This document shows, piece by piece, positions 1 through 3,696 of a DNA stretch of 47,107 bases. Numbering within the stretch: the stretch's first letter is position 1; the number at the start of each line of letters is the position of its first letter. Made by a program: the position numbers and the translations under genes. The stretch is from Candidatus Methylomirabilota bacterium. GTDB lineage: Bacteria; Methylomirabilota; Methylomirabilia; Rokubacteriales; CSP1-6. Under the pieces are notes generated by a model. It made no database searches, was not told where the DNA came from, and worked only from the letters and a program-made list of their open reading frames with translations. The stretch spans positions 1-47,107 of the forward strand of contig DASYVT010000122.1 in NCBI GenBank assembly GCA_035936835.1, written 5' to 3'.

Positions 1-109
1 AGGTCATCCCTTCAACCGACAGCACGACCGTCGACTGAGCGGCTAGCACGACTTGCGCCGCCAACAGCAGAATGAGCGTAGCGACCCAGAATCCGTGTCT
101 GCGCATCAT
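1..109 (-). CDS. merP: MerP-like periplasmic mercury-binding protein, 3' part cut off by the window edge
   Basis: Reading on the minus strand from ATG at 109, the first 36 codons give a short basic N-terminus, a hydrophobic signal segment (ATLILLLAAQVVLAA) and the start of a heavy-metal-associated domain, VVLSVEGMT, which normally continues as C-x-x-C. A GAGGTG ribosome-binding site lies 5 bases before the start and overlaps the merT stop. MerP carries Hg(II) across the periplasm to MerT. The window ends inside the codon after GMT, whose first base is T, so that codon could be TGC, TGT or even TGA. Identity rests on position after merT and on the GMT motif. Confidence 0.75.
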   Translation of the reverse strand, partial: MMRRHGFWVATLILLLAAQVVLAAQSTVVLSVEGMT

Positions 110-113
110 CGCA

Positions 114-521
114 TCACCTCCCGCCCATGCCCTTCATGTCATGACCGGCGGCGCCGTGCCCACCTGTGTCACTCAGGCGGACCAGGATGTCAGAGGCCAT
201 TTCGGGGAACCGATCGAGCAGAACAGCCGTCACCACGACAAGGCTAGCCAGCCCCAACAGAGCCAAGGTAGTCCTGCCCCCCACCATGCGGCAGGCGAGC
301 GCTTCGCACCGACGACGCTCCAGGATGTAGAGGGCGAAGCCCGCCACCACGCCAAGGATTCCCGTTGGGATAAAGATCCATCGGTATTGCATGGTCACCG
401 CCATGAATGCGCCGCTTCCGAGGCCGAGGACGATGACGGTCAGCGGCAAGAGACAGCAGAGCGATGACAGCAGGGCGCCAGCCCAGGCGGCCACACCCGC
501 GCCCAGCGAGCCAAGTTTCAT
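114..521 (-). CDS. merT: MerT mercuric ion transport protein
   Basis: This 135-residue inner-membrane protein moves Hg(II) from MerP into the cytoplasm. The vicinal cysteine pair in the first membrane helix is visible in LSSLCCLLPLT, and the second cysteine pair of the family is in RRRCEALACRMVG on the loop after helix 2. A third hydrophobic helix (TLALLGLASLVVVTAVLL) follows, and the tail is His/Gly/Met rich (GGHGAAGHDMKGMGG), which may add metal ligands. Length is close to the usual ~116-130. The start overlaps the merF stop by four bases (ATGA) and the stop abuts the merP ribosome-binding site, so the genes are co-transcribed. Confidence 0.9.
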   Translation of the reverse strand: MKLGSLGAGVAAWAGALLSSLCCLLPLTVIVLGLGSGAFMAVTMQYRWIFIPTGILGVVAGFALYILERRRCEALACRMVGGRTTLALLGLASLVVVTAVLLDRFPEMASDILVRLSDTGGHGAAGHDMKGMGGR

Positions 522-727
522 GGTTTTCTCCTCCGGACCTGTCTGTACCGGTACAGGGCGAACCCGGTGAAACCGATGAGCAGAGGAAGCACGACCAGAT
601 CCAGGCGGCCCGTGAGCGCACCGAGGCCAAGTGCCCCCAGCAGCAGCACCAGCGCCGGGGTGAGGCAGGCCAGGCAGGTCAGCGCCGCGCCGATTACACC
701 GAGGAGCAACCAGCGATCACGCCACAT
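518..727 (-). CDS. merF: MerF-type mercury uptake membrane protein
   Basis: This is a 69-residue protein with two membrane helices: LLLGVIGAALTCLACLTPALV and a second from about residue 41, followed by a basic tail (YRYRQVRRRKP). The pattern GxIGAALxCLxCLTPxLVxLLG is that of MerF, which imports Hg(II) through cysteine pairs. Here the first pair is spaced C-L-A-C and the C-terminal pair of plasmid MerF is missing. It sits between the zinc-ribbon gene and merT, overlapping merT by four bases. Confidence 0.85.
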   Translation of the reverse strand: MWRDRWLLLGVIGAALTCLACLTPALVLLLGALGLGALTGRLDLVVLPLLIGFTGFALYRYRQVRRRKP

Positions 728-735
728 CGCTCCTC

Positions 736-1017
736 CTAGAGCGCCTCTGCGGCGTAGGCCCCGTATTCAAAGGTGAGCCGATAGCGCCGCCCGCAGCACT
801 CGATCACGTCTCCCGCCTTGGCATCTTCCGACAGTGTCATCACCTCGTCGCAGCCCGGACAGCTCACCCGATACGCGAGGGTGGCAGACCACTGCCCTCC
901 CTCATCCCTGATACGCAGGGCGTGGCCCGCGCAGTTCGGACAATCGAGCAGGTCCCCGGATGTGATTCCAGGGGGCAGCTCGATCTCTTCCCCGCAATCG
1001 GGGCATCGGACCTTCAT
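736..1017 (-). CDS. Tandem LysW-like zinc-ribbon protein of the mer operon
   Basis: The 93-residue protein is two copies of a small zinc ribbon. The first is CPDCGEEIELP then GDLLDCPNC (C5, C8, C26, C29). The second is CPGCDEVMTL then GDVIECCG (C53, C56, C74, C75). The spacing and the GD-I/L-C turn resemble LysW/ArgW-type carrier ribbons, but the acidic C-terminal EDWGE-like tail of those carriers is absent, so a carrier role is not supported. It lies between the glutaredoxin-like and merF genes, 5 bases after the former. With about eight cysteines it may bind or pass on Hg(II), or act as a zinc protein for MerB. That role is inference. Confidence 0.72.
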   Translation of the reverse strand: MKVRCPDCGEEIELPPGITSGDLLDCPNCAGHALRIRDEGGQWSATLAYRVSCPGCDEVMTLSEDAKAGDVIECCGRRYRLTFEYGAYAAEAL

Positions 1018-1022
1018 CGCGA

Positions 1023-1262
1023 TTAGAGCCCCAAGAGACGCTTCAGCCGCCCCCGGTCGAATCCGACGATCACTTCGTCGTCGACCGTGATGACGGGCAC
1101 GGCCATGCGGCCGGTCTTGGCGACCAGTTCCTCCCGAGCCGTCGCGTCCTCCGCGACGTTCTTCGCGACAAAAGCAATCCCCTGAGACGAAAGAAACTCT
1201 TTCGCCGCGTGGCAGGACTGTCAGGTGGTCGCCCAGTAGACCGTGATCTGCTGGTTCGTCAT
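1023..1262 (-). CDS. Glutaredoxin-like selenoprotein (UxxC) of the mer operon
   Basis: Reading through one in-frame TGA (1221-1223) gives 79 residues with a complete glutaredoxin/NrdH fold: beta strand [10 protein letters not shown], then U14-Q-S-C17, helix [11 protein letters not shown], the cis-proline strand [17 protein letters not shown], and a terminal helix. The TGA stands exactly at the first cysteine of the family CxxC, so the active site reads UxxC. Without read-through only 13 residues would be made. A hairpin follows the TGA (separate entry). The start ATG overlaps the MerB stop as ATGA, and the stop is 5 bases before the zinc-ribbon gene. Likely role: reducing Hg-bound or oxidised thiol and selenol groups of the operon's proteins. 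The role is inference; the fold and UGA position are seen. Confidence 0.85.
1175..1223 (-). promoter_or_regulatory. SECIS-like stem-loop after the glutaredoxin UGA
   Basis: On the minus strand, directly after TGA 1223-1221, CGAAAGA and TCTTTCG pair perfectly around a three-base loop GTT about 24-26 bases after the TGA. A lower stem pairs CAGTCCTG with CAGGGGATTG, with a small bulge and one G-U. A G-U apical loop at this distance from UGA is the usual form of a bacterial SECIS that recruits SelB. Confidence 0.7.
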
Positions 1263-1927
1263 GGCTTCTGGCCCCTCAGGAGCCCTCCAAAGACCCGCTC
1301 GCCGAGCTTGAAGGCCTCGGACACCGGAGTCCCCGCGCCTTCCATCGTGGGATTGGCCTCCCACCACGCCCTCATATGCTCTTCCGACCGGAAGAAGTTG
1401 AGGGCCGTTCAGGTTGTCGTCGAGGCTCGCCGCTCGCCGTCGCACCGTTTCCCCGCCCAGACCATGACCCCTTCGGCGTCCGGCCCCGGCCCGAATGGAT
1501 CGGCCGACAACTCAAGGGTCTCCCCGCAATGATGGCAGCGCGATCGGATGCGCACCGACTCCCCGAGCATCGGCGCCACTCCCAACGCGTCGATCGCGCA
1601 GCAGACGTAGCGGTCTCCGCGTCCCGACAGATGGACGACAAAGGATGTGGGGGTGGCCGAAAAGGGATACGCCAAGTCCACGCGACCATCGCGGATTTGG
1701 ATCAGGTCGTCCTCGTCCCGCCTCGTCAGGGCCGCTCGAATATCGTCCGGGGCCCGCTCGGGGAAGGCCCGGATGATCTCCTCAACCACGATCGGGTCGG
1801 GCCGCTCGACGAAAGCTCGCAGAATAGCCTGTAAAACTTCGGCTTCCCGCGCCACGCGCCGTGTGGTCCATCGCGCTTCCAGCGCCGGATCCGCCAGCTC
1901 TGCCGCGCTCTTGATCTGGAATGTCAT
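1259..1927 (-). CDS. merB: MerB-like organomercurial lyase with selenocysteine at the catalytic position
   Basis: Reading through TGA 1409-1411 gives 222 residues, the normal MerB length (~212). Residues 1-80 form a winged-helix-like region. The catalytic C-A-x-D motif is seen in YVCCAIDAL (C110, D113; C96 and D99 of E. coli plasmid MerB), and RIRSRC131 matches the structural cysteine. The TGA is residue 173, in STT-U-TALNFF. In MerB the catalytic C159 has the same distance to the conserved FF. The C-terminal helix region [16 protein letters not shown] continues in frame. MerB cleaves the carbon-mercury bond and passes Hg(II) to MerA. ATG 1927 was chosen because GGAGG lies 9 bases upstream; ATG 1933 is the alternative. 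It is the first gene of the operon and overlaps the glutaredoxin gene (ATGA). Confidence 0.85.
1368..1411 (-). promoter_or_regulatory. SECIS-like stem-loop after the merB UGA
   Basis: Three bases after TGA 1411-1409, GCCCTCA pairs perfectly with TGAGGGC. Inside it, TCTTCC pairs perfectly with GGAAGA around the four-base loop GGTC. The loop resembles the GGUC-containing apical loop of the E. coli fdhF SECIS and sits about 20 bases after the UGA. The two stems are separated by an ACT/GCATA internal loop. This is the strongest hairpin of the four in the window. Confidence 0.78.
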
Positions 1928-1976
1928 GGGCATCCCCCTCCAAGGCCGTCGGTGACCGTCTCGAACCCCTGGCATA

Positions 1977-2007
1977 ACGGTACAGTCTGTAGTAACTACA
2001 GACTCAA
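1977..2007 (-). promoter_or_regulatory. mer operon promoter with MerR operator
   Basis: On the minus strand: -35 TTGAGT (2007-2002), 19-base spacer, -10 TACCGT (1982-1977). The spacer is almost filled by a perfect 21-base palindrome at 1984-2004, arms AGTCTGTAGT and ACTACAGACT around one base. An over-long 19-base spacer with a dyad inside it is the signature of MerR-activated promoters. MerR untwists the DNA to realign -35 and -10. It lies 50 bases before merB and 30 bases before merR, so it probably also controls merR. Confidence 0.88.
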
Positions 2008-2036
2008 GCACTTTCTTCGAGGGGGTGGAACCAGGC

Positions 2037-2525
2037 ATGAACGCCAGATCAGATGGGTTACCAATCGGAGCCCTGTCCAAACAGACGGGCTGCAACATCG
2101 AGACCATCCGCTACTACGAGAAGGCCGGCCTCCTACCCACCCCCGCAAGGAGTCCCGCGGGCTATCGGCGATACGGCAGCACTCATCTCAAACGCCTCAC
2201 CTTCATCCGCCGCGCCCGGGCGCTCGGCTTTTCCATCGAAGAGGTCCGGAAGCTCCTCAAGCTCGCCGATGAACGCAAACGGCCGTGCGCCGAGGTCCGG
2301 GTCGTGGCCGGCGTGCACCTGAAGGATGTCCAAGCCAAAATCGCAGACCTTCGAGCCATGGAGCGCGTCCTCCGGGAGACCGTCGCCAAGTGCGCGAGCG
2401 GCAGGAGCCCCGACTGTCCGCTCATCGAGTCTTTGTCTCGCGAGGGCCCAGACAATCCCTCCACGTTAACGGCGAGCCATGTGCGGGCGCAGAGGAAGGC
2501 GTCAGAACGAAGCGCCCGGGATTGA
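2037..2525 (+). CDS. merR: MerR mercury-responsive regulator
   Basis: The 162-residue protein has the MerR winged helix (IGALSKQTGCNIETIRYYEK, then SPAGYRRYG), a second helix pair around residues 40-75 and the long dimer helix. All three Hg(II) ligands of Tn-type MerR are present: PCAEVR, AKCASG and PDCPLIESL. Hg sensing is therefore well supported, unlike for other MerR relatives. ATG 2037 was chosen: GTG 2025 lies inside the GAGGGGG ribosome-binding site. The C-terminal tail of about 30 residues after PLIESL is longer than usual. Its stop codon lies in a 22-base repeat that forms a hairpin. Confidence 0.92.
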   Translation: MNARSDGLPIGALSKQTGCNIETIRYYEKAGLLPTPARSPAGYRRYGSTHLKRLTFIRRARALGFSIEEVRKLLKLADERKRPCAEVRVVAGVHLKDVQAKIADLRAMERVLRETVAKCASGRSPDCPLIESLSREGPDNPSTLTASHVRAQRKASERSARD

Positions 2526-2544
2526 AACGCGACTTTCAGTCCCC
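2523..2544 (+). repeat. 22-base direct repeat, copy 1 (with CTGAAA/TTTCAG-type dyad)
   Basis: The 22 bases from 2523 are repeated exactly at 4902-4923. Copy 1 begins with the merR stop codon. Within it GCGACTTTCA (2529-2538) pairs perfectly with TGAAAGTCGC (2556-2565) over a 17-base loop, a likely terminator-type hairpin between the convergent merR and peroxiredoxin genes. Confidence 0.8.
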
Positions 2545-2594
2545 TAGGACGAGTGTGAAAGTCGCCCATCCCGAGACTGCACGGGCGGCCAGCC

Positions 2595-2632
2595 GCTCAC
2601 CGGCGGCAGCGACACGGCCGCCGCCGGTGAGC
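2595..2632 (-). terminator. Strong hairpin after the peroxiredoxin gene
   Basis: GCTCACCGGCGGC (2595-2607) and GCCGCCGGTGAGC (2620-2632) are perfect 13-base arms over a 12-base loop, 10 bases beyond the peroxiredoxin stop. There is no T run, so it may act as an mRNA-end stabiliser rather than as a classical terminator. Confidence 0.6.
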
Positions 2633-2641
2633 ACGTCTTGC

Positions 2642-3301
2642 CTATCGCGGCTGGGGGACGATCCGGATGTACGGTTTCGGCGCCTTCCAGCCCCCCGGGT
2701 ACGCCTGCTTGGCGTCGGCATCGGAGACTGCCGGCACGATGATGACGTCCTCCCCCGGCTTCCAGTTCACGGGGGTAGCCACCTTGTGCTTCGCCGTCAG
2801 CTGGCAGGAATCCAGGAGCCGCAGCACTTCGTCGAAATTGCGGCCGGTGCTCATCGGATAGGTCAGCATCGCCTTGACCTTCTTGTCCGGCCCGATGACG
2901 AACACCGAGCGCACGGTCGCGTTGTCGGCCGCGGTGCGGCCCTGCGCAGTGGTGCCGGAGTCCTCCGGCAGCATGTCGTAGGCCTTCGCCACCTTCAGCT
3001 CGGAGTCGCCGATCAACGGGTAGGTGACGGCGTGCCCCTGCGTCTCTTCGATGTCCTTGGACCACTTCTGGTGATCGGGGACCGAATCTACACTGAGGCC
3101 GATGATCTTGCAGTTGCGTTTCTCGAACTCGGGCTTCAGCCCCGCCATGTACCCGAGCTCGGTCGTGCAGACCGGGGTGAAGTTCTTCGGATGCGAGAAC
3201 AGGATGGCCCAGCCATTGCCGATCCACTCGTGGAAATTGATCCGGCCTTGCGTGCTCTCCGCCGTAAAGTTGGGAGCTTCACTGTTGATTCTCAGCGCCA
3301 T
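2642..3301 (-). CDS. 1-Cys peroxiredoxin (Prx6 family)
   Basis: This 219-residue thiol peroxidase reduces hydrogen and organic peroxides. The peroxidatic motif is FSHPKNFTPVCTTELG (C45), preceded by the INFHEWIGNGWAIL strand. The Prx6-type C-terminal domain is present (GRNFDEVLRLLDS, then TPVNWKPGEDVIIVPAV). There is no separate resolving cysteine at the usual 2-Cys position. This peroxiredoxin uses an ordinary Cys codon, in contrast to the UGA-bearing AhpC-like gene at 5647-6303. ATG 3301 has GAGGTG 5 bases upstream. It is transcribed alone, divergently from the 68-residue gene. Confidence 0.92.
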   Translation of the reverse strand: MALRINSEAPNFTAESTQGRINFHEWIGNGWAILFSHPKNFTPVCTTELGYMAGLKPEFEKRNCKIIGLSVDSVPDHQKWSKDIEETQGHAVTYPLIGDSELKVAKAYDMLPEDSGTTAQGRTAADNATVRSVFVIGPDKKVKAMLTYPMSTGRNFDEVLRLLDSCQLTAKHKVATPVNWKPGEDVIIVPAVSDADAKQAYPGGWKAPKPYIRIVPQPR

Positions 3302-3489
3302 GACGCACCTCCGCATCGTGTGAACCGTTCGTACGCGAGCTACCCGTGGAAGAACTGGGGCCATCACCTCCTGCCGCCGTCGCGTGACCACAGGCCCCCA
3401 TTAAGTACCTCCGGGCTCCCCACGCGTCAAGTTCCGGCCGGGTATACCATGGGTCACGCGATGCTGCGGGGGCGACCCGGGGAGGGTTT

Positions 3490-3696
3490 ATGTTTCAGCC
3501 GAACGAGCGGGTGACGGTAGACCTGTCCGGCCTCGTCATCCAGGGCGTCTCGTTCAGCCAGAACGTGCAGAAGGCCCTCGGGACGATCCTGCAGCAGGTA
3601 TCCACGGACCCGTCCATCTACAAGGTCGAGCTCCTGTTCAGCTTCAAGGGCATCAAGCGGGTGGAGGTGCCGGAGGGGCGGATCCACCGAAGCTGA
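3490..3696 (+). CDS. Small protein of unknown function upstream of the cysteine-synthase-like gene
   Basis: The protein has 68 residues and no signal or membrane segment. It shows alternating strands (RVTVDLSGLVIQGVSF, then YKVELLFSFKGIKRVEV) and a central helix, suggesting a small alpha/beta fold. I do not recognise a family. A GGGAGGG ribosome-binding site precedes the ATG. It ends 35 bases before the start chosen for the PLP enzyme and is probably co-transcribed with it. Confidence 0.65.
   Translation: MFQPNERVTVDLSGLVIQGVSFSQNVQKALGTILQQVSTDPSIYKVELLFSFKGIKRVEVPEGRIHRS

Follow-up and report, generated by a model that had tools for sequence, protein, structure and literature searches.

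Directly downstream of merB in the mer operon of an uncultured soil bacterium from the Rokubacteria group we find a gene, grx, for a small glutaredoxin in which an in-frame UGA stands at the first active-site cysteine, and we conclude from comparative sequence evidence that this is a real selenoprotein gene whose UGA codon 14 is predicted to be read as selenocysteine (Sec). The gene lies in the window, by which we mean the whole stretch of 47,107 nucleotides that was analyzed. The assignment of Sec to codon 14 follows from the conservation of the UGA, from a conserved SECIS hairpin and the codon bias at this hairpin, from the Sec machinery of the genome and from a genetic code that is not reassigned. 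The constant partner of grx appears to be a zinc-ribbon gene and not merB, and we slightly favor a role of the protein as a reductant of mercury-binding groups.

The grx Gene and Its Operon

The gene runs on the minus strand from 1262 to 1023 and codes for 79 amino acids, with the UGA as the only internal stop and TAA at its end. The initial annotation had described it as a complete glutaredoxin with a UxxC active site and had recommended a profile search with the read-through protein. This search supports the description, since the protein matches the Pfam glutaredoxin family PF00462 over the full domain with 59.8 bits (E 2.9e-16, cut-off 22.9). The AlphaFold model has a glutaredoxin fold with a mean pLDDT of 94.4 and is best matched by 7c10, Grx1 of Clostridium (Alkaliphilus) oremlandii OhILAs (TM 0.90, rmsd 0.9 A, 51% identity). 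This structure was obtained with a U13C construct, residue 13 of the native protein being Sec (PMC4479559), so that the nearest known protein, with its U13xxC16 motif, is itself a known UxxC selenoprotein. The best matches among the NCBIfam models are GlrX_YruB and the UXX-star families, small (seleno)proteins of the glutaredoxin fold, all of them below the curated cut-offs (TIGR02196, 83.9 vs 88.55 bits; NF041212, 55.1 vs 66; NF041114, 31.9 vs 72; NF041211, 29.6 vs 100). In 21 of 21 aligned copies the UxxC pair, that is the UGA at the first active-site cysteine together with the resolving Cys17, is kept along with Pro56; the invariant Cys17 and Pro56 are what one expects of a redox-active thioredoxin fold doing redox work.

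On the minus strand the order of the genes is merB, grx, zinc ribbon, merF, merT-like and merP (Table 1). The stop codon of merB and the start codon of grx overlap in an ATGA at 1262-1259, which is kept in the same genus only. Thus grx is situated between merB and the zinc-ribbon gene and is part of a mer operon, as had been proposed; it shares this operon with merB and further mer genes behind a MerR-type operator. The operator is a perfect 21-bp dyad, AGTCTGTAGTTACTACAGACT (1984-2004), between TTGAGT (2007-2002) and TACCGT (1982-1977). It is unique within the window, with a chance expectation of 0.02, and recurs at other loci of the kind (L085, L146, L155). Judged from the operator with its 19-bp spacer, from MerB and from MerF/T/P the operon is a mer operon, even though the regulator narrowly misses the MerR equivalog cut-off. 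No MerA above the TIGR02053 cut-off was found in the genome, an assembly of 236 contigs in which merA may be missed, and the MerA-type CC terminus is present in none of the six near-full-length relatives. The absence of MerA would not disqualify the operon as a mer operon.

Table 1. Features of the mer operon in the window
Feature	Position	Strand	Evidence or remark
merP, 5′ part	1..109	-	first 36 codons; contig end after ...VEGMT
merT-like membrane protein gene	114..521	-	weak Pfam match, below cut-off
merF, Hg transport	518..727	-	NF033565 over cut-off
LysW-like double zinc-ribbon gene	736..1017	-	directly 3′ of grx; Cys here
grx, predicted UxxC glutaredoxin-like selenoprotein	1023..1262, stop included	-	translation with TGA = U, Pfam, fold, conservation
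Predicted bacterial SECIS hairpin of grx	1186..1206	-	stem GGCGAAAG / CUUUCGUC, apical loop AGUUU
Codon of resolving Cys17, UxxC motif	1212..1214	-	invariant
UGA codon 14, predicted Sec	1221..1223	-	first residue of U-Q-S-C active site; UGA in 63/63 copies
merB, alkylmercury lyase, own in-frame UGA	1259..1927	-	PF03243 E 1.5e-26, over cut-off
merB SECIS-like hairpin	1379..1396	-	UUCUUCC-GGUC-GGAAGAG; conserved, z -2.85
merB UGA codon 173, equivalent of catalytic Cys159	1409..1411	-	aligned to Cys of GGTCKQIHYF, MerB2 5c17
MerR-type operator	1984..2004	-	perfect dyad AGTCTGTAGT-T-ACTACAGACT, 19-bp spacer; points down operon
merR-family regulator, divergent	2037..2525	+	TIGR02051 134 bits vs cut-off 150.9

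Conservation of the UGA Codon

Codon 14 is UGA in all of the 63 grx copies that cover it (the window counted; the sampling was not selected for U). The replacement of the first active-site cysteine, for which the initial annotation had given no strand and which is read from the minus strand, is therefore found in every copy examined. A grx profile of 21 copies had matches in 88 out of 95 genomes of the phylum. Among the matches listed at E<=1e-10 that cover the column of codon 14 every one has the TGA inside, and the matches lacking a TGA are partial alignments beginning after this position. The reading frame 3′ of the UGA is kept across homologues that are only about 50% identical. Related operons without the downstream frame, or with stop codons inside it, had been named as the observation that would speak against a read-through gene; nearly all relatives have the frame intact, and three loci, L051, L076 and L182, look disrupted, which may be due to assembly errors. 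The related loci come largely from metagenome assemblies, and the sampling lies almost wholly within the phylum. At L051 (1743-1912), a contig labelled Acidobacteria, the operon is of the same make-up but grx has a deletion that breaks its frame; the label may reflect mis-binning or a transfer. A MerB scan of genome contigs returned two contigs labelled Rokubacteria and one labelled Acidobacteria.

The genome contains tRNA-Sec (71 bits), SelA (583 bits), SelB (373 bits) and SelD (348 bits). The genes for tRNA-Sec and SelA/SelB are located together on one contig (C235) and the gene for SelD, itself containing a UGA, on another (C183). Across the phylum SelB is over the cut-off in 83 of the 95 genomes.

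One might suppose that translation simply ends at UGA14 and that the frame behind it is the remnant of a decayed gene or the result of a sequencing error. Besides the in-frame stop itself and the three disrupted-looking metagenomic loci nothing points in this direction, and the conserved frame after the UGA, the invariance of the codon, the conserved SECIS hairpin and the Sec machinery make this reading practically untenable; a pseudogene or a sequencing error is ruled out by the conservation. A genome-wide reassignment of UGA is ruled out as well, since UGA is the ordinary stop codon of many of the same grx genes.

The SECIS Hairpin

The apical loop of the predicted SECIS hairpin is separated from UGA14 by 22 nt. 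The hairpin takes the form GGCGAAAG-AGUUU-CUUUCGUC or GAGAAAG-AGUUU-CUUUCUC, and G27 in its small apical loop is invariant, as is required of a bacterial SECIS element (bSECIS). We analyzed covariation in 61 distinct sequences and used 500 shuffles as control. Of the cells 93% can pair, compared with 84.1% in the shuffles, and for covariation we obtained a score of 0.256 compared with 0.131; in both cases none of the 500 shuffles was as high. Moving the partner strand by 1-3 columns abolishes the pairing signal. At the pair 20-36 we find C-G in 32 sequences and A-U in the other 29; mismatches are absent, although the 3′ side falls on the synonymous wobble position of a serine codon (TCG/TCT). 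Since the two forms follow the clades for the most part, the number of independent events is below 29. One outlier (L183) has an additional U-A swap elsewhere in the stem.

The codons that form the hairpin are strongly biased when compared with the remainder of the same genes. Leucine is encoded by CTT in 58 of 59 cases (20 of 362 elsewhere), phenylalanine by TTT in 53 of 58 (29 of 128 elsewhere) and lysine by AAA in 53 of 56 (30 of 146 elsewhere), and these codons stand in grx genes that are otherwise GC-rich. Taken alone the hairpin of the window is not exceptionally stable (z -1.25), and an Rfam scan of window positions 1-3500 gave no match near a gathering score. It is thus the conservation of the predicted SECIS element, and not the stability of the window hairpin, that makes the case for it.

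Linkage and Phylogeny

Linkage was tallied over the 63 grx copies, with 400 nt as the distance limit between grx and merB. The zinc-ribbon gene adjoins grx in 34 loci and merB does so in 24. There is no merB nearby in 14 of the 34 loci with the grx–zinc-ribbon pair, and on long contigs we find MerR-grx-zinc-ribbon-merF units without merB (L144, L147, L155). Conversely, 13 of 47 Sec-MerB genes have grx within 400 nt and 34 do not. In two families (f5 and f6) Grx contains Sec next to an all-cysteine MerB, and one or two Sec residues occur in the zinc ribbon. On this gene neighborhood evidence the zinc ribbon together with the Hg import module, and not MerB, is the constant partner of grx.

Grx paralogues without mer neighbors occur in the same genomes, one of them in the present genome (C183), and also have Sec; Sec in this Grx is therefore probably older than the link to mer. 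In the tree the window Grx belongs to a cluster of 15 mer-linked rows (SH-aLRT 95) apart from the non-mer paralogues, and over the whole Grx tree, which is based on 76 columns and has few forks resolved, linkage to mer switches six times or more. A viral origin of grx was rejected because no relative was present in viral contigs, and spread by plasmids was rejected because the plasmid matches listed are generic glutaredoxins with about 43% identity or less.

Outside the families f5-f7 most MerB matches across the phylum contain one TGA. Sec-MerB genes with Sec at the position of Cys159 and a SECIS hairpin that has a GGUC loop occur widely in the phylum (47 MerB loci). A second Sec-MerB type (UTGMNLF) is also present, and mer neighbors were not found for it.

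Possible Role of the Glutaredoxin

Starting from the Sec codon, the fold and the operon as they are read from the sequence, we infer that Grx would be the operon's own glutathione-independent reductant of mercury-binding thiols/selenols, an interpretation that we hold with slightly more confidence than doubt. The same judgement covers, jointly, its classification as a dithiol-type (here selenol/thiol) redoxin of the NrdH/YruB/cGrx1 kind. The UGA would be read as Sec by means of the bSECIS hairpin, and the resulting selenol/thiol redoxin would be made from the MerR-controlled operon together with MerB, the zinc-ribbon protein and the Hg importers MerF/T/P. The selenolate of U14 would attack disulfides, selenylsulfides or pairs blocked by Hg in those cytosolic partners that bind Hg, primarily in the zinc ribbon and, where present, also in MerB. 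Cys17 would then resolve the mixed bond on Grx, and a putative flavin disulfide reductase would recycle the protein. No GshB match was found in the genome with the one model used, which a GshF-type enzyme would escape; with no glutathione synthetase found, it is plausible that thiols/selenols are reset by a protein reductant after mercury or oxidation. There is also a precedent, as Grx1 of C. oremlandii has been shown to reduce a selenoenzyme, MsrA (PMC4479559).

The co-occurrence with Hg-transport genes would fit a metal-transfer role of Grx equally well, and the two roles are not mutually exclusive. In such a relay the UxxC motif would be a soft-metal chelate handing Hg(II) from MerB/MerF/MerT to the zinc ribbon, a task that in other systems falls to the N-terminal domain of MerA. 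We take this to be a serious possibility, if on balance an unlikely one. The constant neighbors of grx are Hg carriers (MerF/T/P and the zinc ribbon), which in many relatives have Sec at metal-ligand cysteines (GMTUxxU in MerP, CPNUAG in the zinc ribbon). A canonical MerA was not found in the genome, and MerB yields Hg poorly to monothiols and far better to MerA (PMC4525700). However, Sec is found throughout the Grx family including the non-mer members and was thus probably not gained for mercury, and in one relative (G093) a MerA with CC terminus is encoded upstream of the grx–zinc-ribbon pair, so that Grx persists where MerA exists. Furthermore, Pro56 of the thioredoxin fold is kept, and a cis-proline disfavors metal binding. 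It is rather doubtful whether a chain of selenolates in MerP (UxxU), MerB (Sec at C159), the zinc ribbon (Sec ligands) and the UxxC Grx passes Hg(II) on without MerA, Grx then replacing the N-terminal domain of MerA.

The initial annotation had suggested that Grx frees Hg from the MerB selenol or regenerates it. The ATGA overlap, the operon shared with Sec-MerB and the precedent of Sec-Grx and Sec-MsrA (PMC4479559) agree with this. As a specific function it is nevertheless quite improbable, being weakened by the grx–zinc-ribbon pairs without a nearby merB, by the many Sec-MerB genes that lack an adjacent grx and by the retention of Sec in Grx beside Cys-MerB; where merB is present, such an activity would be possible. 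We consider it similarly improbable that Grx is a general oxidative-stress redoxin which is merely co-regulated with the mer genes and has no direct partner among the Hg proteins. The close paralogues without mer neighbors would suit a general redoxin, but within the window's group those forms that are linked to mer make a supported cluster, and the pairing of grx with the zinc ribbon persists across families.

Relation to Known Systems

In textbooks mercury resistance is presented as a system of thiols. Like classical mer operons the window operon has MerR with a dyad operator of 19-bp spacing, MerB, MerF, MerT and MerP. It differs from them by the predicted Sec in MerB and Grx, and in MerP and the zinc ribbon of relatives, by the additional grx and zinc-ribbon genes and by the fact that no canonical MerA was found. 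In these proteins Sec would be placed at mercury-contacting or redox cysteines, with a Sec redoxin built into the operon.

The window Grx resembles cGrx1 of C. oremlandii (7c10/7c12) in its fold, in the UxxC motif with native Sec and in the KEFLS motif after the active site; whereas cGrx1 works with the selenoprotein MsrA, the window Grx is encoded in a mer operon beside a zinc-ribbon gene. The selenocysteine-assisted organometal (SAO) system, as listed in PMC13188914, likewise pairs in one operon a MerB-like selenoprotein, SaoL (CU), with a UxxC selenoprotein of the thioredoxin fold, SaoT. The window MerB, however, reaches only 54.3 against the SaoL cut-off of 140 and SaoT is unmatched; moreover Sec of the window MerB is at the Cys159 position, and the surrounding genes are the MerR/F/T/P genes of mer operons. 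Sec-glutaredoxins and a few mercury-related selenoproteins (MerP, MerT-like, SaoL, UxxU) are already known (PMC13188914, PMC2398784). The earlier mercury-related ones (MerP, MerT-like, NF041115 UxxU and the MerT/CopZ fusion NF045683) share with the present proteins Sec at Hg-ligand cysteines. A glutaredoxin takes part in Hg(II) handling also in Synechocystis, where a MerA-like enzyme is under the control of glutaredoxin 1 (Marteyn et al. 2013, cited in PMC8261052), which in this secondary account is not reported as a selenoprotein and belongs to another operon type. In the literature searched, to which the Haft SAO/UXX-star papers did not belong, we found no description of a Sec-glutaredoxin (or a pair of Sec-Grx and zinc ribbon) in a mer operon, nor of Sec at Cys159 of MerB.

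Gene callers that take the UGA for a stop would shorten MerB and leave out Grx. The very few Rokubacteria entries in a mer survey of 2021 (PMC8261052) would fit a MerB that is cut at the UGA, and the capacity for mercury demethylation in this uncultured soil phylum is then probably under-counted. Many relatives keep the arrangement of Sec-Grx and mer genes, which points to a selenium-based handling of mercury that is missed by ordinary annotation and makes it possible to test why selenium would be chosen for this purpose.

Further Predicted Selenoproteins Near mer Genes and in the Genome

In a relative of the same genus (L092:1338-1628) merP continues as GMT-U-GA-U, that is a GMTUxxU motif with two Sec, and the protein is over the cut-off of NF041115, a known family of UxxU metal-binding selenoproteins. 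The merP gene of the window is cut by the contig end exactly before the position of the first UGA in this relative. The zinc ribbons of relatives have one or two in-frame UGA codons at metal-ligand cysteines (CPNUAG, CxGUGQ; loci L081, L094, L103-L108, L148-L157, L163 and L164), with hairpins after several of them. At L165:4951-5241, on the minus strand, a MerT-like protein with a CU motif (FFASACUIGPLLA) adjoins a MerP-like GMTUPSC protein; with those in Grx, zinc ribbon and MerP, the UGA-Sec positions of this region add up to about seven.

Two more UGA-containing genes were seen in the window's own genome. A glutathione-reductase-like flavoprotein (L185:1501-2826, corresponding to C172:2192-3517) has a UGA at its second redox cysteine (GGTCVNRGUIPKK) followed by a hairpin that is weakly SECIS-like; it is a candidate for the partner reductase of Grx. 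The third Sec-glutaredoxin of the genome (L188:1758-1967, contig C143; VYYRQGUSSC) has a good SECIS-like hairpin and is encoded directly after a MerA/GR-like flavoprotein.
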